Source: Deltaproteobacteria bacterium
GTDB taxonomy: Bacteria; Myxococcota_A; JAADFL01
Length of the DNA stretch: 39,437 nt
Direction: 5' to 3'
Assembly (NCBI GenBank): GCA_013152945.1
Contig: JAADFL010000155.1
Coordinates: 1-39,437 of the forward strand
This document shows positions 4,812 to 29,436 of this stretch, piece by piece (the stretch's first letter is position 1; each line of letters opens with the position of its first letter). Under the pieces are notes generated by a model. That model had not been told where the DNA came from and searched no databases. It saw only the letters and a program-made list of their open reading frames with translations. A program made the translations under genes and the position numbers.

Positions 4812-4827
4812 TGGCACGATCATTGCT
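4812..4827 (+). promoter_or_regulatory. Sigma-54 promoter of the flhF-flgFGAHI-flgJ operon
   Basis: The sequence TGGCACGATCATTGCT matches the -24/-12 consensus at every conserved base with correct spacing. The expected start of transcription is near 4838, 23 bases before the flhF ATG at 4861. It diverges from the flgB sigma-54 promoter about 210 bases away. The space between could hold shared activator sites, though I could not identify a clear palindrome there. Confidence 0.9.
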
Positions 4828-13442: not shown

Positions 13443-13874
13443 TCAACCTCTCAATGTCCGGCGATAGGCCCTGGCCCCTTTATTATTCCTTTGGAAGCAA
13501 TCGAGTTTGTTACCTAATTCACTCTTCAACGAAAACAAGCTCCTGGAAACTCGTTCATCGAGCCCTACGCAAAGATTGATCAATCCGGCTATTTCGAGCA
13601 GCTTTGAACCTGCTTCGACACGTTCTTCTTTCTTCAATTTTGGCCCGGCCCGTAGAACTGCATCCGCTGCCATGAAGTCTGCAATGGCCCCTGCCCTGGC
13701 CTGTACCAGCTTTTCAAGCAATTCCACGTTCATAGCCCGCTCGGCGCCTTGCTCCTGCGTACGCTGTATTTCAAGGTCCAAGGCCTTTGTGGCACCCAAA
13801 AATGCTTCGCAAGCCTTCAGCTTTCTTTCAATACCATCCATGGGAGACATGGTTTTCTTTCGTTCCATGTTCAT
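13443..13874 (-). CDS. FliT-position flagellar chaperone candidate
   Basis: This 143-residue cytoplasmic, helical protein has no strong family signature visible by eye. It starts MNMERKKTMSPMDGIERKL and continues with long amphipathic helices (LEIQRTQEQGAERAMNVELL, then LVQARAGAIADFMAADAVL). The ATG overlaps the fliS stop by four bases (ATGA), so it is translated with fliS. In many bacteria the gene after fliS is fliT, the FliD chaperone, and the size and helical content would fit. The FliT label is by position only. It ends facing flgK; the 172 bases between (13271-13442) show no gene or clear terminator. Confidence 0.6.
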   Translation of the reverse strand: MNMERKKTMSPMDGIERKLKACEAFLGATKALDLEIQRTQEQGAERAMNVELLEKLVQARAGAIADFMAADAVLRAGPKLKKEERVEAGSKLLEIAGLINLCVGLDERVSRSLFSLKSELGNKLDCFQRNNKGARAYRRTLRG

Positions 13875-14302
13875 AGAGCTGCTCCTCCGGCGTTTTGTTC
13901 CATTATTTCCGGTTTCACACCATTAAAATTCACTGCTCTTCCCTCTGCCAGGGATTGCCATGCTTCACGCAGTTCATCGAGAACCTTCAGAGGGGCATGG
14001 TATAGTTCCACGTCGTTTTTGACCGAAGCCTCGAGAAGCATTTTCAATATGTATAAATAGAGTGATTTCAAATTTGCAGTTATCTGGTCCCCTTCATCAC
14101 GCAATGCAGTTAAAAGTTCACCGACCAGCGCGGAAGCCCGGTTGATTTCCTTGTCTCGAAGTTCGAACTTCCGTTCGGCCTGGGCTTGTTGCGCTGTCTT
14201 GATTGCCGTTATCGCGCCATCGTAACATAGCAAGATCAAGCGCAACGGGCTGGCTGTTAGAACACTGGTCTCTTTGTACTGCCTGAAAGCTTTGCTCTTC
14301 AT
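13871..14302 (-). CDS. fliS: Flagellin chaperone FliS
   Basis: FliS binds the C-terminus of newly made flagellin, keeps it unpolymerised and delivers it to the export gate. The 143 residues include the family N-terminus (AFRQYKETSVLTASPLRLIL, then LCYDGAITAIKTA) and the helix bundle with SALVGELLTALRDEGDQI and LKSLYLYILKMLLEASVKND. A strong GGAGG lies 8 bases before the ATG at 14302. It is located after fliD, the usual order. Confidence 0.95.
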   Translation of the reverse strand: MKSKAFRQYKETSVLTASPLRLILLCYDGAITAIKTAQQAQAERKFELRDKEINRASALVGELLTALRDEGDQITANLKSLYLYILKMLLEASVKNDVELYHAPLKVLDELREAWQSLAEGRAVNFNGVKPEIMEQNAGGAAL

Positions 14303-14357: not shown

Positions 14358-17300
14358 TCAGGCCAACTTTGCAAGCTGCGAAGAAAGCCAGGAACTCTGT
14401 GAGTTGAAAGAGCTTATCAACTGTTCCAACCTCACGTATTTCTCGATCATCATGTCACGTTTATAGGACAGCCTCTCTTCCATCTGTGATATTTGATCTT
14501 CCAGGTCCTTGATATGGTTTTCCAGGGAATCCTGCCTGTTCGAAACGTACCCGTCGAACTGGTCGAGCATTGTGTATAAGTCCCTGTTAAGCATCTCGGC
14601 GGCTCCGAATGTAACCGTCAACGTCCCTACATCACCCAAGGACGAGCCGTCGTACGAAAAGCCCAATCCATCCAGATCGGAACCGTCCGAGTCGATGACA
14701 ACGCTGGTGCCGGTGCCGATGAAACTCTCCCCCCCTATGGTGCCTTCCAAATCCTTGCCCGAATATGACTGGTTCGTGATTCCAAGATTTGTGTCGGGCT
14801 GGGTGGTCGAAACCGAAAAACCCTCGGCCGAACCATAATTGTTTGAGCGAAGAGTCAGTCCGCCCGATGTCCCTTCCAGGGCTTCCAAATCGAGCTTGTA
14901 CCGCCCATCGGTATTCAGACTCGAGTTATCGAAGGTTCCGAGATCCAGGTTTGCTATCTGCGACGTGTCGAGTGAAACTTCGAGTTGGCTGTCGCCTACC
15001 CGGTTTTCCCTGACTTCAATTCGACCCTGACTGTCTACCGTAGCAGTTACATCACCAAAGGCGCTCTCTATTTCGTCCAGCAAGTCACGGACAGTATCTC
15101 CCTGCGCTACCACGTATGTGGCGGATACGGCGTTTCCGGACCGGTCATAGCCGCTGATGGCTATTTGATCTCCGACCTCGGCGACCACGCCGCCGTCGAT
15201 GTCATTCCAGGCGGTATCGGCCGTTATCGCTGTTCCTCCCGATGTATTGGCCGTCGTCCCGACTTTTTCTTCAGTTCTCTCGGCGGACAACTCGGTGTTT
15301 ACTGCCGCTACAATATTGGCGAGCTTCATTCCCGCCGACAACTCTATGACGGCGCTTCTCCCGCTTCCACTGTCTGTAATGGTTAACTGGTCGGCCAACG
15401 CGAGCCCCGAGGTCAAGTCCACCGTGCCCTGTGCAGAAGCCTTATCGGCCGCCTGGGTCACGTTCAAGTCGTATGTTCCAGGTTGGGTGTCCCTGGTGCT
15501 GGAGAGGAACTGTATCCTTCCATTGGTTACGGAACCTTTTGCAGCAAACAGAGCAGTCACCTCGTCGAAGTGGGATTCCAGACTGTCCTGCAGGTCATTT
15601 TCATCCACCTCGAGCTGTCCTTCCTTGTTGAAATGCACACCTACCTGTGCCAGGATGGAATAGTCCTGTTCCAAGCCCTGGCCCGGATTGACTACACACT
15701 CCACCATTTGATTCTTGACCGAGGTTATCGTTCCGTCGGAAAAAAGAGGTCCGCCGATCTTTTTATTCTCCTGGTCATAGCTTGTTTGCTGGTTGATGAA
15801 ATTCATCACTCCGTTGTACGCTCCCACGAAATCTTTTATCTTGTCGACAAGCCCCGCGATGTCCCGCTGGACAGACAATACGAGATCCGTTCCCGAACCG
15901 GGAGCACTTTGAAGGTTCATGGTTACACCGGTTATTGCATCATCCACTGTATTGCTGCTTCTCGTTACAGTAGTGCCGTCCACCTTCACAACCGCGTCTT
16001 GACCGCTTACCACCTCTCTTTCCCTTCCAACCGCCGTTATTTGCACATCTCCGAAATCCAGCACGCCGCCGCCCTCGTTGTTGGCGGTCAATTGCAGGGA
16101 AAGCCTGCTGTCACCAGGTGTTTGATCGGTCACTGAAATCTTGCCGTCCTGCACCACGGCACTGACCTGTCCGCCATATGCCGTCTCAATCTGGTCCAGC
16201 AAATCCTGTACAGTGGACCCGGCCTGTATCGAAAACGATGACGATACCTCGCCTCCGTCCCTTCCGGTTCCGGTTATGGTGATTGTATCCGAGCCCTCGG
16301 TGACTCCTGCGGACGCACCATTGACCCAAAGATCCTTGAACAGCGTGGATGATGTCATCAGGGTGGATGCGTCCTGGTCGGTCATCTGGTTCGAAGTCGT
16401 AAGCTCCTGGGCAACGGAACTTCTGCCTGCTGTAAGTACCCCGAGGCTTTCCAGCACGTGTGCGGAATCAGAGAAACTCGTCGTGCCTGAAATGTCGAGC
16501 CTGTACCTGTACGTATCTTGGTCCAGCTCGCTTTCAACCGATGCGCTCACACCCGTGAGTGCGTCGATGCTGGATGCAATATCGGTCAGGGACTGGGAAC
16601 TCAAATCTATCGAAACCTGCTGTCCCGCAATAGTCACATTCGTCGCCCCTGGTGGAGAATCCGCTCCCATGAGGGAACCGACAGGGGTCGAGGCGTCGTT
16701 GAACCAATCCGACGTGGCGCCGTCACTCGTCGGGTGTTGTACTGATACGGAAGTTTCCACCAGCCCGAGGTCCCTCGTAACCTGTCCCGAACCCAAATCA
16801 GCCAGCATGATGCCACTGCTTCCGGAATCTTCGGATGTCAGGACGAGCCGATAATCATCTTGAGCGGCGGCAAGTATTGTGGCTGTAACTCCGGTCGGAT
16901 TCGAGCCGCTGTTTGCTGCATTGATCTTGTCTCTCAATGAAAGCAGCGTGTCCTCGGCATCCACGGATACAGCCTTGGTGTTGATCAGAAATTCACCTGA
17001 AATTCCAAGTCCTTGGTCTTTTTCTTCAAAGCTGGAAGATTGGAGCTTTTCTGCGGCCGCCAACTGGAGGACCTGGATGGTATGTGTTCCTACCGATGCA
17101 TCGGTTCCCACCGCGGCATCGAGCACATCGGCCGCATCCGTGCTTCCGGAAGCTGATATTGAAGATGTGAACAGGTTGAATGAACTCTCCTCGGCCAATG
17201 ACGATGACTTGGAGCGCAGGGTTTCGAGCAGACCTGCCAGGCTTTGCCACGCATCCAGCTTTGCCCCTTCCGCGTCCTTCCTGTTCGTCACCAAGTCGAT

Positions 17301-17390
17301 ACGCCGGTGATCCACTGCAATGAGCTTGTCTATCATGCTCTGCCAATCGAATCCTGATACGAGCCCTGCTATTTGCTGTGTTCCGGCCAT
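14358..17390 (-). CDS. fliD: Filament cap protein FliD (HAP2), enlarged by insertions
   Basis: FliD caps the filament and helps insert flagellin. At 1010 residues it is about twice the usual length (450-550). The FliD N-terminal domain covers about 8-110 (GLVSGFDWQSMIDKLIAVD). The C-terminal domain begins near 465 with AVVKVDGTTVTRSSNTVDD and DLVLSVQRDIAGLVDKIKDF, reaches VTALFAAKGS at about 611-620, and is then interrupted by roughly 310 residues before the terminal coiled coil (LNRDLYTMLDQFDGYV and on to 1010). Two related modules occur: residues ~366-435 and ~740-806 share the pattern I.I.G.(D/R).G..VS....V..G.TV.DLLD.IE.A.G.V.A.V...G.I.V..(N/Q).(V/P)GDS.L. These were probably added as surface-exposed domains. 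Confidence 0.95.
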   Translation of the reverse strand: MAGTQQIAGLVSGFDWQSMIDKLIAVDHRRIDLVTNRKDAEGAKLDAWQSLAGLLETLRSKSSSLAEESSFNLFTSSISASGSTDAADVLDAAVGTDASVGTHTIQVLQLAAAEKLQSSSFEEKDQGLGISGEFLINTKAVSVDAEDTLLSLRDKINAANSGSNPTGVTATILAAAQDDYRLVLTSEDSGSSGIMLADLGSGQVTRDLGLVETSVSVQHPTSDGATSDWFNDASTPVGSLMGADSPPGATNVTIAGQQVSIDLSSQSLTDIASSIDALTGVSASVESELDQDTYRYRLDISGTTSFSDSAHVLESLGVLTAGRSSVAQELTTSNQMTDQDASTLMTSSTLFKDLWVNGASAGVTEGSDTITITGTGRDGGEVSSSFSIQAGSTVQDLLDQIETAYGGQVSAVVQDGKISVTDQTPGDSRLSLQLTANNEGGGVLDFGDVQITAVGREREVVSGQDAVVKVDGTTVTRSSNTVDDAITGVTMNLQSAPGSGTDLVLSVQRDIAGLVDKIKDFVGAYNGVMNFINQQTSYDQENKKIGGPLFSDGTITSVKNQMVECVVNPGQGLEQDYSILAQVGVHFNKEGQLEVDENDLQDSLESHFDEVTALFAAKGSVTNGRIQFLSSTRDTQPGTYDLNVTQAADKASAQGTVDLTSGLALADQLTITDSGSGRSAVIELSAGMKLANIVAAVNTELSAERTEEKVGTTANTSGGTAITADTAWNDIDGGVVAEVGDQIAISGYDRSGNAVSATYVVAQGDTVRDLLDEIESAFGDVTATVDSQGRIEVRENRVGDSQLEVSLDTSQIANLDLGTFDNSSLNTDGRYKLDLEALEGTSGGLTLRSNNYGSAEGFSVSTTQPDTNLGITNQSYSGKDLEGTIGGESFIGTGTSVVIDSDGSDLDGLGFSYDGSSLGDVGTLTVTFGAAEMLNRDLYTMLDQFDGYVSNRQDSLENHIKDLEDQISQMEERLSYKRDMMIEKYVRLEQLISSFNSQSSWLSSQLAKLA

Positions 17391-17406: not shown

Positions 17407-17805
17407 TTATACCTTGGTATCCAGGAATGCCCCGATTGCCTTCCTGATTCTCGCTACCAGGTTGATCATCTCTTCGGGCGGTATCTCTTTCAATACTTTC
17501 GACGTAAACGCCTCTACGATCTTTACCTGGTACCTTCCCGCATCCTTCCTGTAATTAATCGTCAAGCGCGAATTAATGGATTTGAGCAAATCAGACACGG
17601 TCTGCGCTACCACCGGCAGGTTCGAGACATCGCTCTCACCGGTAGAGTCCTCGCCGGTTTTTTCGCCCTTTGCAACAACTGCTTCTTTTCCAAGCAGAAC
17701 GCTGTTGACCCTTTTGGCCTTATCCAATCCGGCGGCCACCGGTGGCGGCTCTGCCTGAACCTGTGGCTCCGGCTTTGGAAGGGAGCCATTCAAATTAACA
17801 TCCAT
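17407..17805 (-). CDS. flaG: FlaG family protein
   Basis: FlaG proteins affect filament length and are found next to flagellin or fliD genes. The 132-residue product has an unstructured N-terminal half rich in Pro and Lys and a conserved C-terminal domain: LLKSINSRLTINYRKDAGRY, then QVKIVEAFTSKVLKEIPPEE, which matches the FlaG pattern of a short beta segment followed by VIRQIPPEE. It lies between fliC and fliD, 16 bases before fliD, and is probably read from the fliC promoter. Confidence 0.88.
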   Translation of the reverse strand: MDVNLNGSLPKPEPQVQAEPPPVAAGLDKAKRVNSVLLGKEAVVAKGEKTGEDSTGESDVSNLPVVAQTVSDLLKSINSRLTINYRKDAGRYQVKIVEAFTSKVLKEIPPEEMINLVARIRKAIGAFLDTKV

Positions 17806-17887: not shown

Positions 17888-19003
17888 CTATCCAAGCAAT
17901 TTGAGTATTCCCTGCTGTGACACATTTGCCTGAGCCAACATTGCGGTTCCGGACTGGAGCAGAATCTGGTTCTTGGTGAAATTGGACATCTCGGCCGCCA
18001 TATCCGCATCACGCACCACGGATTCACTTGCTGTGAAGTTCTCGATGGTCGTGGACAAGTTTGCCGCAGCGTACATGAGCCTGTTTTGATTCGCGCCGAT
18101 GGATGCCCTTCTGTTGGCCAGGGTGCTCACCGCAGTATCGATGGTATCCAGGAATGATCTGGCGTCAGACTGGTTCAGGAGTTGATCTTTGCTGAGACTC
18201 AAACCGGATGAATCAACAGCATCTATACTGAAGGACAGCCTGTCATTTGTTCCTGAACTCGTGCCGATTTGGAAATCCGCCTCGGTATCGCTGCTGTCGG
18301 CCTCGATCTTGGTCGAGCTCTGCGCTTCATAGATATTGGAATTCAAGGTCAATCTCAAACCAAAGGCATCGAAATCGACCTGAGATGTCTCGCCGGTGCC
18401 GGGCTTGGTGATTCCGGAAACCACTTGCGAGTTTCCACCATCCGTGATGGTGATTTTTACTTTGGTAGCAGAAACAGTAGCAACGGCAATCGTCACATCC
18501 TGTGTAGAAGAGTTCCAACCTGTGACCGATACGAGTCCGCTGACCACGCCCTCTGATCCTCCGGAGAGCACGAGGCCGAAAGATCCGTCGAGAAGGTTGG
18601 TCCCATCATACTCGGTCGAATCCGCAATCCTGTCGATTTCGTCGATTAGTTCATTCGCCTCGGAATTGATTTTCGTCCTTTCCGAGGAACTGACGTTCGA
18701 TGATGCGGCCTGTGTTGCAAGCTCCTTGAGCCTGACCATCATGGCGCTGATCTGGTCCATTCCTCCTTCAGCCACCTGAAGTATGGAATTCGCCTGACTG
18801 GCATTTTGTGAGCCGACCTTGTAAGAGGCGATATCCGCCCGCAACGTCGAACTGATTGCCAATCCCGCCGCGTCATCCGCAGCCCTGTTGATCCTGTAAC
18901 CCGATGAGAGCCTTTCCAGTGATTTGGCAAGTGCGCTCTGGGTATTGGCCAGGTGTCTCTGTGCATTGAGTGAAAGTGGATTGTTTTGAATTCTCCATGC
19001 CAT
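17888..19003 (-). CDS. fliC: Flagellin FliC
   Basis: Flagellin is the filament subunit. From ATG 19003 it has 371 residues. This start is preceded by AAGGAGGATCGG and gives the normal N-terminus MAWRIQNNPLSLNAQRHL; starting at 19072 would add 23 unrelated residues. The D0/D1 N-terminal region has LERLSSGYRINRAADDAAGL and ends near 145. Residues ~145-270 form a small variable domain rich in Ser, Thr and Gly, a likely site of glycosylation. The C-terminal region has IENFTASESVVRDADMAAEM and SQQGILKLLG. Control comes from a sigma-28 promoter 156 bases upstream and a CsrA-type hairpin in the leader. Only one flagellin gene is visible in the window. Confidence 0.97.
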   Translation of the reverse strand: MAWRIQNNPLSLNAQRHLANTQSALAKSLERLSSGYRINRAADDAAGLAISSTLRADIASYKVGSQNASQANSILQVAEGGMDQISAMMVRLKELATQAASSNVSSSERTKINSEANELIDEIDRIADSTEYDGTNLLDGSFGLVLSGGSEGVVSGLVSVTGWNSSTQDVTIAVATVSATKVKITITDGGNSQVVSGITKPGTGETSQVDFDAFGLRLTLNSNIYEAQSSTKIEADSSDTEADFQIGTSSGTNDRLSFSIDAVDSSGLSLSKDQLLNQSDARSFLDTIDTAVSTLANRRASIGANQNRLMYAAANLSTTIENFTASESVVRDADMAAEMSNFTKNQILLQSGTAMLAQANVSQQGILKLLG

Positions 19004-19028
19004 TTTTCCGATCCTCCTTGTCATTCGG

Positions 19029-19050
19029 CCCCTTGGTTCCTTCCAAGGGG
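19029..19050 (-). promoter_or_regulatory. CsrA-binding hairpin candidate in the fliC leader
   Basis: In the fliC mRNA, CCCCTTGG and CCAAGGGG form a perfect 8-bp stem around the six-base loop AAGGAA. The preferred CsrA site is a hairpin with loop ANGGAN, so the match is exact. A second ANGGAN (AAGGAG) lies in the Shine-Dalgarno sequence at about 19014-19019. The two sites are about 20 bases apart, the geometry seen in other CsrA-repressed flagellin leaders. The fliC ATG is 26 bases downstream of the hairpin. Confidence 0.75.
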
Positions 19051-19103
19051 GTTGGCTTCCCTGCCTGGTCAAGCGACCTTTGTGGCCGGACTGATTTCCC
19101 TGT

Positions 19104-19356: not shown

Positions 19357-21018
19357 CTACAACCAGGTATTATTCCCTTTACCCAGTCCAGCGATATCGA
19401 CACCGGGATGCGTAACATGCCGGATTCCATCATCCTTGGCCAGGCCCCCTTCCAGCAGCCGGATTGCAGTACTAATGCAATAAGAATCCGCGGGACTTAG
19501 GTCCAGTCCAAGTTTCAGGGCCTGCCTTGCAGCAACGCTCCTTTTCATGTCCCAGAGTTTGCATGCCGCCTCACTGCAGAGGCGGGCCACTTCCTGCCTG
19601 GTTCCGATCTCTCCCTGATAATCAATGCCGGTCCTTGTGAAAACGCGACCAAGCGAATCCAAGAAAGAATCCACGTCATTTTCACGTAAAAAACGCCTTG
19701 CTGCGAGCAAATCGCCTGTAATTTCTTCGTGAGCGGAAATCGAAAGCGCCTCGCAAGCCGCATCAAGCAAACCGGAGGAAGCACTGTCTATGAGTGGAGC
19801 GGTAATTCGGGCAAGCATTCCTGATGCCTTCGTGTACCCCGGGTCCTCTGCCACGGCCCTTGAAAGGTAAGCCAGGGCTTCCTCTTTCCTACCTGTTTCA
19901 TTCATGTATTCACCGATTCCAAACAAGCCTTCCGCCTTGTTCGAGGCTGCCCTAACCACCTGCTCGAATGTTTCACGGGCCTTTGTACGCATCCCTTTTT
20001 CCAGCATCGATATTCCCATCTGGAGAAGTACTTTCCACTCATGGCGCTGGGTATTCAAGACCTGCAGTCCCGCATGATGAGGTTTGCCTTCAAACCGCTT
20101 CAATATTTCGATAAATTTCCGGCCATGCTTGATTACCAGGTCCCATTTTCCTTGAATCGTGTATACGCTGCATAGGACTGCATGTGAATCCATGTGGTCC
20201 TCGTTCTTTGAAAGAGCTTCCAGGCAAAGACTTTCCGCCTCGTGCAACCGGCCTTTGAGAAAATTACACAACGACGCGATATGATAACTCCAGAATAACA
20301 ACTGTGGGCCGATGGTGCGCTTCCTTGCCAGTTCGATGGCCCTTTGCGCTTCCTCCAAAGCATCATCGTATTTCTTGATATTCAGGTGAGATGCAGCCAG
20401 GTAATGATGTGGAATCGGATTGTTTGGATCCTCGGCCACCATTTTTTCGAGAAGTTCCGTGGTTCGCTCATACTTGGCCTGCTTTTTCTCCTGCTCGAGG
20501 TCGTAACCATAATGGTGTATCTTCAGGTCCACCGCCTCGGTGCTGTCATAGCCGACCAGGTTGTTGTGCACAATACCCTCGAACCTTATTACATTGTTGT
20601 TCCTGAACATGCGTATGAGGTTGGCGCTGCCCATGTTCTGTCCATCCCTGGTCCAGTTGACAAGGTGAATCATGAACGAATCAGTATCAGGCAAAGCATT
20701 TCGAATAACTTGTTTCAACCTCGGTCCCGATCCGGAATCGAGCCTCTCGTCGGCATCTATGTAAACAATCCATTCCCCGCCTGCGTATCCCAGAGATTGG
20801 TTTCTGTGCAGGCTGAAGTTCTTTTGCCAAGGGTGAATGTAAATCTTGGCGCCGAAGCTCTTTGCAATCTCAACGGTATTGTCGGTGGACCCGGTATCGA
20901 CGACGATTATTTCGTCAACATACGGGGCTATGCTCTCGAGGGCGCCCGGAAGCATATCTTCCTCGTCCTTGACGATCATGCATAATGAAAGCAGGCATGG
21001 AAATTCAGTTGCACTCAA
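19357..21018 (-). CDS. GT2 glycosyltransferase with TPR region, probable flagellin glycosyltransferase
   Basis: The 553-residue protein joins a family 2 glycosyltransferase domain to a long helical repeat region. GT2 features are LCMIVKDEEDMLPGALESI near residues 12-30, VDEIIVVDTGSTDNTVEIA near 34-52 (nucleotide-sugar binding) and the DAD metal-binding motif at 88-90 in WIVYIDADERLD. From about 195 to 420 there are TPR-like helices (PHHYLAASHLNIKKYDDALE; GIGEYMNETGRKEEALAYLS). It would transfer a sugar from a nucleotide donor to a protein or glycan. Its ATG overlaps the fliW stop by four bases and it is followed by fliC, so flagellin is the likely acceptor (inference). The C-terminal 130 residues have no assigned domain. 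Confidence 0.85.
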   Translation of the reverse strand: MSATEFPCLLSLCMIVKDEEDMLPGALESIAPYVDEIIVVDTGSTDNTVEIAKSFGAKIYIHPWQKNFSLHRNQSLGYAGGEWIVYIDADERLDSGSGPRLKQVIRNALPDTDSFMIHLVNWTRDGQNMGSANLIRMFRNNNVIRFEGIVHNNLVGYDSTEAVDLKIHHYGYDLEQEKKQAKYERTTELLEKMVAEDPNNPIPHHYLAASHLNIKKYDDALEEAQRAIELARKRTIGPQLLFWSYHIASLCNFLKGRLHEAESLCLEALSKNEDHMDSHAVLCSVYTIQGKWDLVIKHGRKFIEILKRFEGKPHHAGLQVLNTQRHEWKVLLQMGISMLEKGMRTKARETFEQVVRAASNKAEGLFGIGEYMNETGRKEEALAYLSRAVAEDPGYTKASGMLARITAPLIDSASSGLLDAACEALSISAHEEITGDLLAARRFLRENDVDSFLDSLGRVFTRTGIDYQGEIGTRQEVARLCSEAACKLWDMKRSVAARQALKLGLDLSPADSYCISTAIRLLEGGLAKDDGIRHVTHPGVDIAGLGKGNNTWL

Positions 21019-21509
21019 GTTCGACCTCCCCTTGCTTTTATTTCACTGAATATCGGTTCTTTTGTATTGTAAGCGTCATCCTGGAGCACAAGTTGAGCCG
21101 CCCTCCGCGTACGGGTATTAATCAGCAACGGGGCTCTAAGGTTGGTTGTCGATTCTTTCCACGGATTTCGCAAGGTCACGGTTGTCAGAACCAACGCGTC
21201 TTTCGGACTATCGAGTTCCAGGTCCACGCCTTCCAACTCTTTACGGTCTATCACATAGCCCAACACACTCGTGGGGTCCAGGAGAAGGAAAGCAACACCC
21301 GGGTCCTGTAACGACTGAAGCCAGAAAAGCGGGGCCTGCGTATCTTCCTTGAACAGGGCGAATTCGGTTAAACCGGGAAAGCCAAGCAGAGGTCTGGCCA
21401 TTTGAAGTTGTGAATCACCCGGTAGCCGGAGCTTTCCGAAGCGCCGGCTCTCCACGGTGATTGTTTCTTTTGGTTGTTCCGTTTGTTTTTTTAAGGTATT
21501 GATTTTCAT
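21015..21509 (-). CDS. fliW: Flagellar assembly factor FliW
   Basis: FliW binds flagellin and, when flagellin has been exported, binds CsrA and lifts its repression of flagellin translation. The product has 164 residues, with about 20 extra residues at the N-terminus relative to short FliW proteins. Family features are RPLLGFPGLTEFALFKED, PLFWLQSLQDPGVAFLLLDP (the conserved F.WLQS.(E/D)...AF.(V/L).(D/N)P segment), LTTVTLRNPWKESTTNLRAP and LLINTRTRRAAQLVL. The RBS is GAGGAAGTC. It sits between flgL and the glycosyltransferase, with csrA two genes upstream, so both partners are encoded in one transcription unit. Confidence 0.95.
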   Translation of the reverse strand: MKINTLKKQTEQPKETITVESRRFGKLRLPGDSQLQMARPLLGFPGLTEFALFKEDTQAPLFWLQSLQDPGVAFLLLDPTSVLGYVIDRKELEGVDLELDSPKDALVLTTVTLRNPWKESTTNLRAPLLINTRTRRAAQLVLQDDAYNTKEPIFSEIKARGGRT

Positions 21510-21537: not shown

Positions 21538-22410
21538 TCATCCCAGGAGGTTTACGATGGATACTCCCAACGTCCTTTCGGTTATCTTCATGGCCGCTTC
21601 CAGTGCCTTGAGATCGTTCATGTAACCTGTAGCAGCTTCTGCAAAGTCGGCATCTTCCAGAGAAGAAATATGTCCGGCCAGTTCCACCTTCCTGCTCTCC
21701 AGATCTTTGTCTACCTGGTCCAGTGTGCTTGCCCTGGCTCCGAATCTCCCGTGAACTTGTAAAACGTGGTTCAAGGCATTGTCTATGTCGTCCAGGGCAT
21801 TGCGAACAGCTTCCCGGTCGGCTCCTTCAAGAGCAGTTTTCAATGATTCGAGTGCATCGAAAACATGACCGTCAACAAATACCTTTTGCCCGCTCTCGTT
21901 TATTGCAGTCCTGGTCCCGGGGCCCACGTCCAACTCAATCGACCCATCGTCTCCCGTATAGTTGCCGGACTGGTCGAAAGGTGCAGCATCCAACTTGTAA
22001 CCGCTGAATATATACTCATTGCCCAGCTTGGAATCGCTTATTGTAATCATTTGTTTCTTTAGCTGCTCCGCTTCCTTGCCTTTTATGGAAAGCTCGGATG
22101 CGTTCAGGCCGCTGTTCAAACCGGAAACAGCCAACTCCTTGGCTTTCGAGAGAATATCGACCGCCTGTGACAGGCTGGAATCAGTCTGGTCGGCGAATGC
22201 CCTGGCCCTTTCAAGGTTGCGGCTGTATTGGTCCAACTTGTCCTTTGTTGCATGGAGTATTACCAATCGTTCCGCTGCAACCGGATCATCAGACGGCTTT
22301 GCAACCTTCTTTAGCGTTGTTGCGAGATCCTGGCTCTTCTTGAGCCTTTCCATAGCCTTCTTGATGTCTTGTAAAGTATCATTCACCAACATGCCCGAGG
22401 TAACCCGCAT
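21538..22410 (-). CDS. flgL: Hook-filament junction protein FlgL (HAP3)
   Basis: FlgL is the second junction protein, related to flagellin. The ATG at 22410 is 5 bases after GGAGG and gives MRVTSGMLVNDTLQDIKKAM, the usual N-terminus; an in-frame ATG at 22422 adds four residues and lacks an RBS. The 290-residue length is normal. VAKPSDDPVAAERLVILHA matches the flagellin-type loop and the C-terminal helix ends MKITERTLGVSIVNLLG. LGNEYIFSGYKLDAAPFD is the FlgL hallmark. It lies apart from flgK, which is under the flgM promoter. Confidence 0.95.
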   Translation of the reverse strand: MRVTSGMLVNDTLQDIKKAMERLKKSQDLATTLKKVAKPSDDPVAAERLVILHATKDKLDQYSRNLERARAFADQTDSSLSQAVDILSKAKELAVSGLNSGLNASELSIKGKEAEQLKKQMITISDSKLGNEYIFSGYKLDAAPFDQSGNYTGDDGSIELDVGPGTRTAINESGQKVFVDGHVFDALESLKTALEGADREAVRNALDDIDNALNHVLQVHGRFGARASTLDQVDKDLESRKVELAGHISSLEDADFAEAATGYMNDLKALEAAMKITERTLGVSIVNLLG

Positions 22411-22589
22411 TTCAGCCTCCATAGCGGTTTTTCATCCGGTCCAGTAAGTAGAATCGTCCTTTGATGACATGTCTTGAGGAAAAAATGACCGGTCTGTCAG
22501 TTCAGACGAAATACGGATATCTTGAACCCGCAATCCTGGTGAGCAAGATTTTCTTCAACCTTCTTTCCGCCCCTGGCCGGAACCGGGAT

Positions 22590-22895
22590 TCAAGACGATT
22601 GTTTCACGTCCGGCGCCTTTGAGGACGAATTGTTCCCGGATTGCTTCTTTTCCGCGGCCCTGCGAATTTCCATAGCCAATTCGTCTACCGGCAGCTTGTC
22701 TTGCGTTCGCGCCACAGTAAGTGCTTCCAGGTTTTCACTCTTAACTTTCTCTAACAACTCGCCCCGCAGAATTTGCACGTTCCTCGGCGCCTCGACTCCT
22801 AATTTCACCGTATTTCCCCGGACCGAGATGATGGTTACACTGATGTCATCTCCCAAATTCAAACTCTCCCTGACCTTCCTGGTCACAACAAGCAT
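22590..22895 (-). CDS. csrA: Translational regulator CsrA with C-terminal extension
   Basis: CsrA is an RNA-binding dimer that blocks translation at GGA motifs near ribosome-binding sites. The core is textbook: MLVVTRKVRESLNLGDDISV, then VRGNTVKLGVEAPRNVQILR, where the RNA-binding beta-1 and beta-5 residues are retained. Enterobacterial CsrA has 61 residues; this protein has 101, with about 35 extra residues of mixed charge ending KAPDVKQSS. FliW-binding CsrA proteins carry a longer C-terminus, so the extension may be the FliW contact, though this one is longer than usual. Start ATG follows GGAGGCCCGAC. Confidence 0.95.
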   Translation of the reverse strand: MLVVTRKVRESLNLGDDISVTIISVRGNTVKLGVEAPRNVQILRGELLEKVKSENLEALTVARTQDKLPVDELAMEIRRAAEKKQSGNNSSSKAPDVKQSS

Positions 22896-23090: not shown

Positions 23091-23106
23091 TGGCCCGCAA
23101 CTTGCA
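23091..23106 (+). promoter_or_regulatory. Sigma-54 promoter of the PilZ gene
   Basis: TGGCCCGCAACTTGCA matches the -24/-12 consensus with one mismatch (C for A) and exact spacing. Predicted transcription start is near 23117, 37 bases before the ATG at 23154. This ties the PilZ protein to the flagellar sigma-54 regulon. Confidence 0.8.
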
Positions 23107-23153: not shown

Positions 23154-24020
23154 ATGGCGGCAGCTCGTTTGTTATTCGAAGGAGCCGAGGTGTACATCTC
23201 GGAATTGGAAACAGCGGAATGTCCTGCATCCGCTGCGCGAATCGAGACCATGGAAGGGCCCAAGGCAACAGTCGTATTGCTAACACCCTGGCAAGGCACG
23301 GAGCTGTCCCCGGGCCAACTGGTGCTTGTCGGCTTGGCAGCGGAAAGCTCATTCCTCCAAACAAAGGCTAAAATCAAAGAATTCCACCCGCCTGCAAGAA
23401 TAAGGCTCAAGTTGCTGGGTCCCCTGAAACCCACGGACAGACGGGAATTCCTTCGAGTATCAGACTATATCAGCCTTGGTTACAGCATGCTTTCGCCTCA
23501 AGATTACCCGATCGCCAGGTTGAAAGTATTAAAACGAAAACGCATGCTCATCAGGAGGGACATAGGGTCCGCTACCAGGGAATTCATACCCAACATGCCG
23601 GAGGAAATAGATTACCTGGCAAAAAAGATGGATGCCATCGATGCCAAGCTCGATTATATCCTGTCCCTATTGAACACAACAAAAGCAGATGCAAGTTATG
23701 CCAAGGGCGGCAAGAGGCTGCGCTGGGTCAACTTGAGTGGTTCCGGCTTGAGATTCAGCGGCGATTTGAAGGTAAAAAAAGGAACACTGGTCGAGGTGGA
23801 AATAGATCTTCCCCTGGAACCGCCTGTAGAAGTCAAGGTCATATGCCGGGTACTGGGTGTCAATGAAGACAAGACCGGCAAGTTGGGAGAGGATAAGTAC
23901 CTCATCTCGGCCAGGTTCGAAGTGGTACATGAACGGGAGAGAGATGATATCATCAAGTACACATTCAAGAGACAACGCGAACTATTGCGCGAACAGAGGA
24001 GACACAACAGGCCGGATTGA
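23154..24020 (+). CDS. PilZ-domain c-di-GMP receptor with helical insertion
   Basis: This 288-residue protein likely binds cyclic di-GMP and links it to motility. An N-terminal YcgR-like region (~1-90) precedes the PilZ signature. The arginine motif DRREFLRV is at 95-102, and the second motif NLSGSGLRFSG is at 193-203. In ordinary PilZ domains the two motifs lie about 25-35 residues apart; here they are separated by about 90, including a strongly amphipathic helix (DYLAKKMDAIDAKLDYILSL). Such an insertion is known in coiled-coil PilZ proteins that form tetramers. A flagellar-brake function is inference from the sigma-54 promoter and location. GGAGG precedes the ATG by 6 bases. Confidence 0.85.
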   Translation: MAAARLLFEGAEVYISELETAECPASAARIETMEGPKATVVLLTPWQGTELSPGQLVLVGLAAESSFLQTKAKIKEFHPPARIRLKLLGPLKPTDRREFLRVSDYISLGYSMLSPQDYPIARLKVLKRKRMLIRRDIGSATREFIPNMPEEIDYLAKKMDAIDAKLDYILSLLNTTKADASYAKGGKRLRWVNLSGSGLRFSGDLKVKKGTLVEVEIDLPLEPPVEVKVICRVLGVNEDKTGKLGEDKYLISARFEVVHERERDDIIKYTFKRQRELLREQRRHNRPD

Positions 24021-24665: not shown

Positions 24666-27600
24666 TCACAAGTTAAAGACTTTCCTTTGGATTTCCGGGC
24701 ATGCAGGCATATCCATGGGGTTTTCCATGTCGAAAAGTTCGGCCGCGAGCCTCACCATTTCAGGATCGAATAATTTTCTGAAGAATTCGTATCCCGCATA
24801 GTACTTCCAACGATTTAGAACGTCCATCTTGCTTGTATCACGGACGTTAACACCATCGAAACTACTGCCTCCGCCATGCAATGATATCTTGTTAAAGCCT
24901 GCGTCGCTAAATTGCAGGCCCACTTTCAATGCAAGCTCACGGCGGTAATCTCTTTCCTTGAACCATCGGTTGTAAACAACGATAATTAACTTGTTCGGAT
25001 CGAATACACCGGAGCCCAAGGCCTCTTTTGCATAAGCCTTCCAAAGCCTGACTTTCTCCTCGACAGGATAGAATTTACGGAGCTGTTCGTAATTGTTCGC
25101 GCTTCTACGGCTTCCCTTGATATCACTTGCAAACTGGTTGTAAGGATCCCTTACGACCAACACAAGGCGCCCTGCCTTCAGGAAATCGTCCATGATCCTT
25201 TTCAACCGTGAATCGATTGTACCCCAAATGTCCAGGTCTTCCATGGAATAAATTTTGGCGCTTGTTTGAGCATTCGCACCATTATGATAATTGATTGGGT
25301 ACATTTGTTTTCTATTGGGCGCCAACTCGCCGCCTTCGCCGAATAAACAGTCATTCATATGTACAATGGGTTTTTCGTATTGCCCGCATATCCAGTTCAA
25401 TATTGCATGGTGTCCACTTCTCTTCATTCCCAAGACCATGAATGCGTCCTGATTCGAAATTGATGATGTTCCGACGGCTTGCGGTTCGGTCAATTTTGTG
25501 GAACCGGCATTGATTGAGATCGAATCAATTTTCTTATGCCCATCTTTTTCATGCTCATCCCGTGTTTCGAAATCCAGGGCGAGGTCCCTGACAATGGAAT
25601 GCAGCCTGGCTTCGAACGTATGATATGTATGTGCCTTTCTGTACCCGGCCAAGGCGATTTCCTCTCTTTCATGAGCATGGTCCAGGTAATAAGCAATTTC
25701 ATCTTCAATGGTTTCTTCGTTGAAATAAACCAGGTGTTTCCTATGTTCGAACAACCTTGACTCTTCGGGAATCTCGTTGGTCAACAAAAAGCTGCCGCAA
25801 CCCAGGGCCTCGAATACCCGTTGCTGTATCCCGGTTCTTCCCAGCCCCAAGTTCAACACAATCCTGGATTGGTTGTACAACTTCACCATGTCGTCCATGA
25901 AGGCCCTGGTCACGACGAGGTCGAACCTTTGCGACAACCTGTCCAGCAATTCCCTGCGGTTTTGGTAAACATTACCCACAAAGCATACGTCGTGCTTCTT
26001 TTCCAGGAACATTTTCCTGTGAACCGCAGGACTCATGGCCAGGGGAAGAAAAGACACGTTCCTTGCGCCCAGTTCCCTGAATCTATCCAGTGCCCTGTCA
26101 TCGAATGAATACACCTTGTCGAACGACCAACCATTGAATTTTACCTGGGGAGCGGCGTGAGGGGCGGTAAAAACATCATCCTGGTACCATAGAACGGTTC
26201 TGCCCTTTTGCCTGCTGATAAGCGCCGGATCTATGCCATCTCCCTTGATGACCAGGACCAGATGAGCCTCCTGCCGAAACAGATCCGGCAACTCTGCTCT
26301 CTCAAGTCTGAAATCCGTGTCCAGAACACGCGCCCCCATCTTCTCCAGGGCCCTGAACACCTCGTTGCCCATGCCCCAGGGATGATTCGACCTCCTGGCG
26401 CTTACCAAGTGAACAGTGAAGGGCTCCTTTTTGTTTCCATCCGTTAAAAGGAGAGCACCGTCATCTCCTTGTTCAAGCGACATACCGGAGTAGTCTTTGC
26501 AAGCAAGGGTTAGTCTACTTCCCGTGCTCACGGCAATCGAGACACGGCCGTGTTTAATCCCATCGGCCCCTGGTTTCAATAAAGCGGCTTTGCCAGAAGG
26601 CGATAACTTTTCATCCTCAAGGCTATTATTCACTATTTGACGCAATTTCTGTTCGAACTTCTCTCTGTTCCACCTATTTTCAGCATCCCATGTCGCTTGC
26701 CTGCTCAAGGACAACCACATACCCGTGTTCGATACTAATTCTTTCATCGCCAGGGCCAGATCATGTACACCGGCTTCAGCACCCTTGACATGGATTCCTC
26801 TATATTCACGCCATTCCTTTACAGGGCAGAGGAGCCCGTTCTCATGATCCCGGACGAATTCGTTCATGGGTGGAGCATCCACTGTTATTATCGGCAATCC
26901 GGCTGCAAGCGACTCCAAAAAAGTGAGGCCCAGACCTTCCCACTTGGATGGAAGCACTGCAACATGGCAAGACTTGTACAAGTCGGCAAGCGCACGTCTC
27001 CCGATGGTCCCCCTGGTTATCCTGATATTTCCATGCTCCTCGACTCCACTGCCCTGCTGGCTGTGGACAATCAGCTCCGCCCGGCCGATACCCGCCCTTT
27101 TGAAAGCCTCGATGACCCGGGACGTGGCCCTCCTGGCATGTAATCCTCCAAGACCTGCCGGATGGAAAAACCTCATTCGTCCGTTTTCCAAACTATTATT
27201 CCGTTGCTCCAAGCCGGCCTCGTCTGCAAGAAAATCCTCTTCCATGACCGCCCAAGGCAGGTATACGGCATTATGCACGCCTATTTCTTTGAATCTTTCA
27301 AAGCTTGCACGTGTCGGGCAAAGAACCCTGTTGAATGCCCGGCTCACGACTGCAGCCATCCTTGGATCGAACAACTCCCAAACATAGTATCCTATGGCCT
27401 TTGCTCCTGCATCTCTGGCAGCCCAAACCAGGCCCAGATCATATTCTTCGTTGAACATGACCACATCCAACTCTTTCGCCCTTACCCACTGCCTCATCCT
27501 GTAGGAAGGTATCTTGTATTCGGGCCAGATTTCCAGGTTCGGGACCGCCCATTCTCCGGTAGTACAAAAGAGTTTTTCTCCGGCTTTGCCGCCATTTCTC

Positions 27601-29333
27601 GCTAATACAAAAGTGTCGAAGGTACCGGATAATGCCGCACGTAAATGCCTGGTGACATAAGCCTGGCCCCTTGGGTACCAAAGTGAGACGAATCCCACCC
27701 TGGAGCGGGTCGTTACAGGCTTTGCATACCCAGCCCCTTTTAACCCCGGTTTTCCAGGTTCACCCAGGAAATTCAGGACACGCAGGTTTGCCTGAACAAC
27801 ATCCTCTTGTTTCCCTGACTTCACCGTACCCACGGCCCCACACCACCCGGTCAACGTACCTTGGTACAACTTCTTGGCTCGTTTTGACGGATAACCGAAG
27901 AACAGGTATTCGTAAAACCTTTCATCAGGTTCATTTATTACGCTTTCCAATGCTTTATATTTTGCAGCCCTGGAAGCAATCTTGCTGTCCAGGAGCAACA
28001 AGTTGGGTTTCACATCCTTCAGACCTGTCTCAAGTCCCTTGACCAGTTTTCCTATTTGGGACCGGGGAAACTCATCCAATACGAGCAACATCCTCCTTTG
28101 GCCCAATCTCGCTCTCTCGGGCAGGAGTTGTTCTATCTTTTGTCTCGCCTCCGGCCCGTAAGAAGATTCATCGGTCAACAAACAAAGCTTATACCAGTGC
28201 AAAGCCGCATCCAGGTTATGGGCCGACGATTCGGCATCTCCCAGGTTCATCATCGTTTCGCCATTTTTAGGCTCAAGAGAATCAGCCTTTAGCAGGTGCT
28301 TTCTGGCAGTATTCGAATCTCCTTTCATGAAAGCCAACACGCCGAGATTGTTGTAAACCTCGGCTGTTGCATTTCCTTTTTTCAACAAGTCCGTTAACAA
28401 CACCCCGGCCCTGTCGTACCGGCCGACCGAAAGAAGCCCTTCAGCCTTTATGAGCACTTTACGTACATTGAGAACAGCTTCAACTGCATCAGCATCAACA
28501 ATTTTTGCCTTGGAAAATACCGCTACCTGCCAGTTGTCGCCTTGAAACACCTCGCAAAGGTCCATTCCCATTCGGTCGAGATCCTTCAACCAGGAATCCT
28601 TGTATTTCTCATTTTCCGCAATATGAGATATCACGGTGGGATTGAACCACATCCCTGACGTAACCAATAACCCGCCGGGTCTAAGTGATAGGATCATGCC
28701 GGCGAGTGCGCCCATCGGATCTTCCATGTGTTCCAGCACGTCCTGGGCTGAAATGATATCCAGGTTTTCGAGTCCATCCATGCTGTTTACAAACCTGAGG
28801 TCGAAACCGAGTTTATCCGCCCTGAACCGGGCGAAATCCTGGGTCCTTCCTTTCACATCCAGCGACACGACCTTGCAGCACGAGGCAAAGTACAATCCAA
28901 CTTCACCCAATCCTGCGCCATAATCCAGAAATAAAGGCCTTTTTTTACCACCTTTTGAAAGTGCGGCTACATGTCTCCCCAGAATCTTCGCCAGATATTC
29001 CAGCCGCCACATGCTTCCCGATACATCCGATGCCGCCAAGTCGAAAATGTAGTTCCCGGTTTCCTCATAAAATCCTTTGATATTCTGCATTCCTCTTTTG
29101 GATTTTCTTTCGAACCACTCTTCTTGAAAGAGCCTGCCGGCATTGCTCAATACATATTCAATTTTCTCCTTTGACAATCCGGCGAATTCGGCCAAGTGAC
29201 ACTTCCGGCTGTCAATAATCCGACGGATCAGTGTCTCGTCCGGCTTGTATCGCCAAAAAGATTCGATGACTTCTTCGTTGTTTCCCTTGACTTTCGACAT
29301 CGGGGCTGCCTTCAACTCCTGTTTAATCGTCAT
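24666..29333 (-). CDS. Giant modification enzyme: methyltransferase-TPR-GT4-CgeB-like GT-sulfotransferase
   Basis: One continuous frame encodes 1555 residues from ATG 29333, which has GGAGG 8 bases upstream and follows a sigma-54 promoter. Domain order: (1) SAM-dependent methyltransferase, ~110-275, with motif I FLDYGAGLGEVG at 135-146 and DVLEHMEDP near 198-206; (2) TPR-like helices ~325-405 (AEVYNNLGVLAFMKGDSNTA); (3) a GT4/GT-B glycosyltransferase ~545-905, with the donor-binding PSKWEGLGLTFLESLAAG near 795-812; (4) a CgeB-like GT-B module ~970-1250, with DVCFVGNVYQNRRELLDRLS and RVFEALGCGSFLLTNE; (5) a sulfotransferase-like domain ~1295-1555, with P-loop GMKRSGHHAILNWI (~1302) and LVVRDPYNQFAS (~1392) resembling the two PAPS-binding motifs. 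All five look intact. It sits among flagellar genes, so it probably builds and decorates a flagellin or surface glycan. The substrates cannot be read from the sequence. Confidence 0.85.
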   Translation of the reverse strand: MTIKQELKAAPMSKVKGNNEEVIESFWRYKPDETLIRRIIDSRKCHLAEFAGLSKEKIEYVLSNAGRLFQEEWFERKSKRGMQNIKGFYEETGNYIFDLAASDVSGSMWRLEYLAKILGRHVAALSKGGKKRPLFLDYGAGLGEVGLYFASCCKVVSLDVKGRTQDFARFRADKLGFDLRFVNSMDGLENLDIISAQDVLEHMEDPMGALAGMILSLRPGGLLVTSGMWFNPTVISHIAENEKYKDSWLKDLDRMGMDLCEVFQGDNWQVAVFSKAKIVDADAVEAVLNVRKVLIKAEGLLSVGRYDRAGVLLTDLLKKGNATAEVYNNLGVLAFMKGDSNTARKHLLKADSLEPKNGETMMNLGDAESSAHNLDAALHWYKLCLLTDESSYGPEARQKIEQLLPERARLGQRRMLLVLDEFPRSQIGKLVKGLETGLKDVKPNLLLLDSKIASRAAKYKALESVINEPDERFYEYLFFGYPSKRAKKLYQGTLTGWCGAVGTVKSGKQEDVVQANLRVLNFLGEPGKPGLKGAGYAKPVTTRSRVGFVSLWYPRGQAYVTRHLRAALSGTFDTFVLARNGGKAGEKLFCTTGEWAVPNLEIWPEYKIPSYRMRQWVRAKELDVVMFNEEYDLGLVWAARDAGAKAIGYYVWELFDPRMAAVVSRAFNRVLCPTRASFERFKEIGVHNAVYLPWAVMEEDFLADEAGLEQRNNSLENGRMRFFHPAGLGGLHARRATSRVIEAFKRAGIGRAELIVHSQQGSGVEEHGNIRITRGTIGRRALADLYKSCHVAVLPSKWEGLGLTFLESLAAGLPIITVDAPPMNEFVRDHENGLLCPVKEWREYRGIHVKGAEAGVHDLALAMKELVSNTGMWLSLSRQATWDAENRWNREKFEQKLRQIVNNSLEDEKLSPSGKAALLKPGADGIKHGRVSIAVSTGSRLTLACKDYSGMSLEQGDDGALLLTDGNKKEPFTVHLVSARRSNHPWGMGNEVFRALEKMGARVLDTDFRLERAELPDLFRQEAHLVLVIKGDGIDPALISRQKGRTVLWYQDDVFTAPHAAPQVKFNGWSFDKVYSFDDRALDRFRELGARNVSFLPLAMSPAVHRKMFLEKKHDVCFVGNVYQNRRELLDRLSQRFDLVVTRAFMDDMVKLYNQSRIVLNLGLGRTGIQQRVFEALGCGSFLLTNEIPEESRLFEHRKHLVYFNEETIEDEIAYYLDHAHEREEIALAGYRKAHTYHTFEARLHSIVRDLALDFETRDEHEKDGHKKIDSISINAGSTKLTEPQAVGTSSISNQDAFMVLGMKRSGHHAILNWICGQYEKPIVHMNDCLFGEGGELAPNRKQMYPINYHNGANAQTSAKIYSMEDLDIWGTIDSRLKRIMDDFLKAGRLVLVVRDPYNQFASDIKGSRRSANNYEQLRKFYPVEEKVRLWKAYAKEALGSGVFDPNKLIIVVYNRWFKERDYRRELALKVGLQFSDAGFNKISLHGGGSSFDGVNVRDTSKMDVLNRWKYYAGYEFFRKLFDPEMVRLAAELFDMENPMDMPACPEIQRKVFNL

Positions 29334-29378
29334 TTCCTGGACCTCCGTTGAAAATTCAACAAAAACGACGAAGATATC

Positions 29379-29394
29379 TGCAAAGTCCGCGCCA
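29379..29394 (-). promoter_or_regulatory. Sigma-54 promoter of the giant modification enzyme
   Basis: On the minus strand TGGCGCGGACTTTGCA matches the consensus TGGCACG-N4-TTGCA with one mismatch and exact spacing. The transcription start would be near 29368, 35 bases before the ATG at 29333. It supports the chosen start and places the gene in the flagellar sigma-54 regulon. Confidence 0.8.
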
Positions 29395-29436
29395 TAGACC
29401 GGACATGACGATTGCAAAACCAAAAAACTTTTCGGC

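Follow-up and report, generated by a model that had tools for sequence, protein, structure and literature searches.

Sulfated glycans are known from the flagella of archaea (archaella). For bacterial flagellins, literature searches for a sulfotransferase yielded none and returned only archaeal N-glycan cases and a taurine-bearing glycan from C. difficile. In that glycan the sulfur is present as taurine sulfonate and not as a sulfate ester (PMC5207245). It is the C. difficile system which also provides a bacterial precedent for a fused flagellin-modifying enzyme: the flagellin glycosyltransferase GT2 (CDR20291_0242), whose gene adjoins fliC, combines a glycosyltransferase with a methyltransferase domain and acts on the flagellin O-glycan (PMC5207246). 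A single chain with the domains GT-GT-MT, protein A064R of chlorovirus PBCV-1, extends and caps a protein glycan (reported in PMC7826918).

The window analysed here, a stretch of 39,437 nucleotides from a deltaproteobacterium, codes for a protein, P0001, which resembles both precedents. As in CDR20291_0242, a glycosyltransferase and a methyltransferase are fused, but the C. difficile protein is from the GT2 family and has two domains. With A064R, P0001 shares two glycosyltransferase domains and a methyltransferase on one chain, while the viral protein has 638 aa, serves a viral capsid N-glycan and has no TPR segment, no sulfotransferase and no relation to a flagellum. A sequence-only reading of this DNA had described an uninterrupted frame of 1555 residues without giving its strand. 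This frame was found on the minus strand, where it runs from ATG to stop with 0 internal stop codons (Table 1). The longest possible ORF extends up to a TTG at 29423, and the ATG at 29333, which is preceded by a Shine-Dalgarno sequence, was chosen as start. The sigma-54 promoter that had been proposed is present as an exact pattern match, the 3′ end of which is 45 bases before the ATG. Sites were accepted if TGGC(N)YG-N4-TTGCW occurs ahead of a gene. The strict pattern, TGGCNYGNNNNTTGCW, has 3 occurrences in the window compared to 0.07 expected. The site of P0001 is a match to the consensus and thus a putative promoter.

Table 1 Features of the window around P0001. Residue numbers refer to P0001.
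Feature	Position	Strand	Evidence or remark
P0001, five-module protein	24666-29333 (stop codon included)	-	single open frame
Shine-Dalgarno sequence GGAGGT	29341-29346	-	sequence; 7 bases before P0001 ATG
sigma-54 -24/-12 promoter-like site TGGCGCG-GACT-TTGCA	29379-29394	-	exact pattern match
exact sigma-54-like site	23091-23106	+	ahead of PilZ gene (23154-24020, +)
exact sigma-54-like site	4812-4827	+	within called FlhF frame, close to FlhF start
SAM methyltransferase module, residues 1-285	28479-29333	-	Pfam above cut-off, residues 113-248
TPR module (likely), residues 286-400	28134-28478	-	sub-cut-off Pfam; designed TPR protein match
linker, residues 401-535	27729-28133	-	no Pfam match; model uninformative there
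GT4-type GT-B glycosyltransferase module, residues 536-905	26619-27728	-	Pfam; Brocadia homologue
CgeB-like glycosyltransferase module, residues 966-1260	25554-26438	-	Pfam; G402 fusion
sulfotransferase-fold module, residues 1293-1555	24669-25457	-	model, PDB matches, family alignments
TPR-GT2 glycosyltransferase	19357-21018	-	Pfam; same strand as P0001, 3.6 kb downstream
flagellin, probable glycan acceptor	17888-19072	-	Flagellin_N/C (Pfam)
FlaG	17407-17805	-	
FliD filament cap	14358-17390	-	Pfam
FliS flagellin chaperone	13871-14302	-	
FliW	21015-21509	-	
FlgL-like hook-filament junction protein	21538-22422	-	Flagellin_N/C; 28% identity to Brocadia FlgL
CsrA	22590-22895	-	

Profile searches for the five proposed domains recovered three of them, with matches above the cut-offs of the respective Pfam models. 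Methyltransf_31/23/11 match within the N-terminal module, Glyco_trans_1_4/Glycos_transf_1 at residues 770-843, and, for the CgeB-like module, DUF3880 together with Glyco_trans_1_2 at residues 1072-1247. Motif I of the class I SAM methyltransferases (LDYGAGLGEVG, residues 136-146) and the EX7E motif of the GT4-type GT-B module (EGLGLTFLE, 799-807) are intact, so that the SAM methyltransferase and the two different GT-B glycosyltransferases of the sequence-only reading are confirmed. The C-terminus has no Pfam match, and the TPR-like helices reach only sub-cut-off values with Pfam TPR models (E 1e-4), while residues 304-389 match designed TPR proteins with E 1e-26 (phmmer). A TPR module is thus likely. 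A structure model of residues 297-1290, for which the Brocadia homologue was the only relative, was discarded due to a pLDDT of 35.9; the TPR segment of this otherwise poor model is helical with a pLDDT of 65-80. The motifs of P0001 are intact and its frame is free of stops, in keeping with the earlier statement that it is not a decayed fusion.

The sequence-only reading knew of no described protein with this order of modules. Indeed, neither the order of the five modules nor the fusion of a sulfotransferase has been seen outside the window. However, the TPR-GT4-CgeB core is not unique to P0001. A search of the genome collection yielded one relative, from Candidatus Brocadia sp. AMX1, which is 51% identical over P0001 residues 297-1254 (51-52% for the GT4 module). 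This TPR-GT4-CgeB-GT2-TPR-GT2 protein of 1814 aa (L032:9497-14941) is unannotated in the data used and is encoded within a flagellar island, with flagellin/FliD on one side and FlgL/FlgK on the other. It shares the core with P0001 but has neither the N-terminal methyltransferase nor a fused sulfotransferase, and it carries extra GT2 and TPR modules. A separate Sulfotransfer_3 gene (168800-170125) occurs in the same island. The contig codes for flagellin, FlaG, FliS, FliD, several TPR-GT2 proteins, sugar-nucleotide enzymes and further giant glycosyltransferases, followed, after the Sulfotransfer_3 gene, by FliW, FlgL, FlgK and FlgI (except for flagellin and the sulfotransferase, gene names are from reading the translations). 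The region G377:C69:108001-188000 (L032), with giant glycosyltransferase proteins of 1190, 1814 and ~2492 aa, is apparently a large island for flagellin glycosylation in anammox bacteria. Literature searches retrieved no paper on such an island in these organisms.

Among 98 relatives of the AMX1 genome, 29 match the core at E<=1e-12. Fusions of GT4 and CgeB occur in G383, G386, G389, G402 and G405, and the two are neighbours in most of the other genomes for which flanks were fetched. Wherever the flanks extend that far, TPR-GT2 genes are found 0.5-12 kb from the core (contigs G379, G382 and G389 end too early, and G405 has a piece of a TPR-GT2 gene at its edge only). In 8 Brocadiales-type genomes a flagellin gene was found at 4-13 kb from the core, and Brocadia AMX1 has one at a distance of ~16 kb. 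TPR-GT2 genes and the adjoining flagellin gene share the strand of the core, with G395 as the exception. The order core/TPR-GT2/flagellin/FliD/FliS is common to the window and most of the Brocadiales-type genomes, with FlgL, FliW and CsrA being interposed behind the core in the window. The core is thus linked to flagellin across distant genomes, as expected for a flagellin glycosylation locus. When the core gene (GT4 or GT4-CgeB) was scanned from 400 bases upstream up to its base 60 with a relaxed sigma-54 pattern, a site was found in 5 of 10 Brocadiales-type genomes (L058, L092, L100, L101, L103), while the fetched regions of 20-80 kb around the core contain one to five such sites each. These are consensus matches, but their recurrence ahead of the core is not easily explained by chance.

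One of the Brocadia relatives, G402, has a permuted version of the protein. Its chain of 2076 aa is organized as TPR-GT4-MT-CgeB-GT2-TPR-GT2 (L085/L086, G402:C89:50251-56481) and shares four of the five P0001 modules, namely TPR, GT4 (42%), MT (40%) and CgeB (62%), and it also has neighbouring TPR-GT2 genes. The methyltransferase is a true counterpart of the N-terminal domain of P0001, with ~40-45% identity over 260 residues, but it is positioned between GT4 and CgeB. A sulfotransferase is missing and there is an extra GT2-TPR-GT2 tail. Methyltransferase, GT4 and CgeB have thus been fused in two different orders, which shows that the modules are shuffled.

Between the glycosyltransferase core of P0001 and the fused proteins of Brocadiales type, identity is 42-62%, and in 377 genomes from the phylum of the window the core is almost missing. 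The flagellar proteins of the window are only 28-44% identical to their Brocadia counterparts, and for FlgI the identity to other genomes of the phylum reaches 51%. A partial 16S sequence from the host genome (L062/L063, G000:C176) resembles Bacteroidota by eye, with uninformative probe checks, and its contig may have been misbinned. In a tree of CgeB domains, the window groups inside the fusions of the Brocadiales, but support is only moderate (81/86); in the GT4 tree it has an over-long branch. These data are most simply explained by a transfer of the core, and horizontal transfer from a Brocadiales-like source is considered likely. P0001 may have originated when a methyltransferase and a sulfotransferase were added to a pre-existing TPR-GT4-CgeB protein of an anammox-type flagellar island.

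In the window, P0001 is surrounded by genes for FliF, FlhF, FlgF/G/A/H/I, FlgK, FliS, FliD, FlaG, flagellin, TPR-GT2, FliW, FlgL and CsrA, which confirms the location in a flagellar cluster with a TPR-GT2 gene that had been noticed before. This TPR-GT2 protein is the counterpart of the TPR-GT2 proteins encoded next to flagellin in Brocadia (31% identity over 407 aa). The MptE-like, Maf-type domain PF01973 was not found in the whole genome, and hence not in P0001, with archaeal controls being positive. Next to P0001 (29824-37655), a second-messenger cluster is found beside the flagellar genes, with genes for HD-domain, PilZ, GGDEF and HDOD proteins, a ParA/MinD-type ATPase and a histidine kinase-response regulator.

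The last 263 residues of P0001 have 0 matches to Pfam at E<=10. They match none of the sulfotransferase families PF00685, PF13469 and PF17784 and are therefore not filed under these. One relative of the domain matches Sulfotransfer_3 with E 1e-4, which is under the cut-off. A sulfotransferase-like domain had nevertheless been proposed from motifs at residues 1302-1314 and 1395-1403, and this proposal was strengthened by structure prediction. An AlphaFold model with viral relatives in the alignment has a pLDDT of 75.7 and a pTM of 0.80. Foldseek returned sulfotransferases as top matches, and the best 50 PDB entries obtained with VIA-align are all sulfotransferases (Z 10.9-13.8, ~183-225 residues). 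The leading entries are the sulfotransferase domains of olefin synthase and of the curacin pathway, together with tyrosylprotein sulfotransferases. With 4gbm and 4gox (polyketide/olefin synthases) and with 3ap2 and 5wri (tyrosylprotein sulfotransferases), Z is 12.9-13.8 at ~11-15% identity, and the substrates differ; like the domain of P0001, 4gbm and 4gox derive from multi-domain enzymes. From these fold matches, together with the one sub-cut-off relative, we assign the domain to a divergent family with sulfotransferase fold. A PDB sequence search with the family had matched only NKG2-D and designed bundles, which were judged to be chance matches.

Members of this family occur in 3 other genomes among the 377 searched from the same phylum and on plasmids of Gemmatirosa, Jannaschia, Paracoccus and Tritonibacter, where they adjoin genes for glycosyltransferases and annotated sulfotransferases. 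With the family alignment, 11 matching loci were found on viral contigs (L043-L053), while no relative was found in phage records and no usable match in PHROGs. A relative of the whole of P0001 was not found on viral contigs. A search of the 98 Brocadia relatives, run without a positive control, detected no member of the family. One viral contig of 527 kb (IMGVR_UViG_3300005613_000001; L046:3932-6193, L049) codes for two proteins of the family, and in one of these (754 aa) the domain shares the chain with TPR repeats and a weak GT9-like domain. The family signature consists of G-x-x-R-S/A-G-N/H-H, a Glu after the next strand, R-D/N-x-x-N-x-x-A-S and, usually, GGGSSF. In P0001 it is represented by GMKRSGHHA (P-loop, 1302-1310), RDPYNQFAS (1395-1403) and GGGSSF (1487-1492), while the viral members of the family, which is invisible to Pfam, show RSG[NH]HA ... 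RDxxNxxAS ... GSSF. The domain residues G10, R13, G15, H17, R103 and S111 are invariant in both family alignments, and the RSG-type P-loop, R103 and S111 are common to bacterial, plasmid and viral relatives. In known sulfotransferases, the K/R-S-G loop binds the 5′-phosphosulfate, while an Arg and a Ser, eight residues apart, form the 3′-phosphate motif. R103 and S111 have the same spacing. These motifs suggest that the domain uses PAPS. The host genome can make PAPS, as it codes for an APS kinase (G000:C167, E 4e-61).

The sulfotransferase fold might be used to transfer another group or merely to bind a nucleotide, so that P0001 would not sulfate at all. Besides the missing Pfam match, this would fit the only NCBIfam hint for the domain, NF058596 (O-methyl phosphoramidate transferase CJJ1420 family), which is far under the cut-off with 15 bits versus 600 (E 0.009). 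Also, the P-loop Lys of SULTs is replaced by Arg, and the SG is followed by His and not by Thr-Thr. However, an Arg at this position is also found in tyrosylprotein sulfotransferases and in Sulfotransfer_3 proteins, among them the one from Brocadia (GMFRSGTT). As the R..S spacing is kept in all aligned relatives, the top fold matches are all PAPS enzymes and an APS kinase is present, we consider the absence of sulfation rather improbable. Sulfation by P0001 remains a putative activity, suggested by fold and motifs.

A similar weight is given to the view that P0001 modifies FliD, FlgK, FlgL or a cell-surface glycan, its gene being placed in the flagellar cluster for co-regulation only. The many sugar-nucleotide genes, the 2492-aa ORF and the Sulfotransfer_3 gene of the Brocadia island exceed what a small flagellin glycan needs, and the plasmid relatives of the sulfotransferase domain are in polysaccharide-type gene sets. 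What makes this unlikely is that the core is consistently close to the genes for TPR-GT2, flagellin, FliD and FliS, whose order is mostly retained, and that several genomes have sigma-54-like sites ahead of the core. It is this linkage that backs flagellin, the acceptor favoured by the sequence-only reading, as the likeliest target. A fusion of separate genes by an assembly or annotation error is very improbable and was rejected. The junctions between methyltransferase and TPR and between CgeB and sulfotransferase have no second example in the same order. But the frame is free of stops over 4.7 kb, a Shine-Dalgarno sequence and a promoter-like site are ahead of the first module, several other genomes have a fused core, to which the methyltransferase is joined in G402, and GC and GC3 are similar across the modules and to the neighbouring flagellar genes.

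We thus regard P0001, as a rather likely reading, as a cytoplasmic multi-enzyme on one chain, with a sigma-54-type promoter, that extends and finishes the glycan in a flagellin glycosylation island. As the core is also encoded beside flagellin genes in anammox bacteria, P0001 probably makes and caps a sugar coat on the flagellum that is methylated and perhaps also sulfated. It would be expressed together with the flagellar genes, and its TPR segment may dock either flagellin or the glycan-starting TPR-GT2 protein. Of the two glycosyltransferase domains, GT4 and CgeB-like, each would add one sugar, with donors and order being conjectural, the methyltransferase would O-methylate a sugar, and the C-terminal domain may sulfate a sugar with PAPS. 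Extension and capping would thus occur on one chain, prior to flagellin export. The five modules in one chain agree with the assembly line that had been suggested. However, to say that it builds the glycan from the start is too strong, because two glycosyltransferases and two capping domains fit extension and finishing; the adjoining TPR-GT2 protein, in the absence of a Maf-type protein, is the better candidate for attachment of the first sugar. More tentatively, and with some doubt, we propose that flagellin receives two sugars as well as a methyl ether and a sulfate ester from a single chain, which would give a sulfated bacterial filament made by a family of shuffled modules that is shared by the anammox islands and this distant genome.

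In summary, P0001 belongs, as an elaborate member, to a recurring module of flagellar islands and is not an isolated curiosity, and its core draws attention to an island for flagellin glycosylation in anammox bacteria. If confirmed, it would represent a sulfated flagellum in bacteria and a divergent sulfotransferase family, missed by Pfam, which is present also in viral contigs. Separate genes, fusions of two glycosyltransferases, and chains with seven and five modules would then form a natural series of glycosyltransferase fusions, which would allow tests of the order in which the steps of flagellar glycan synthesis occur.
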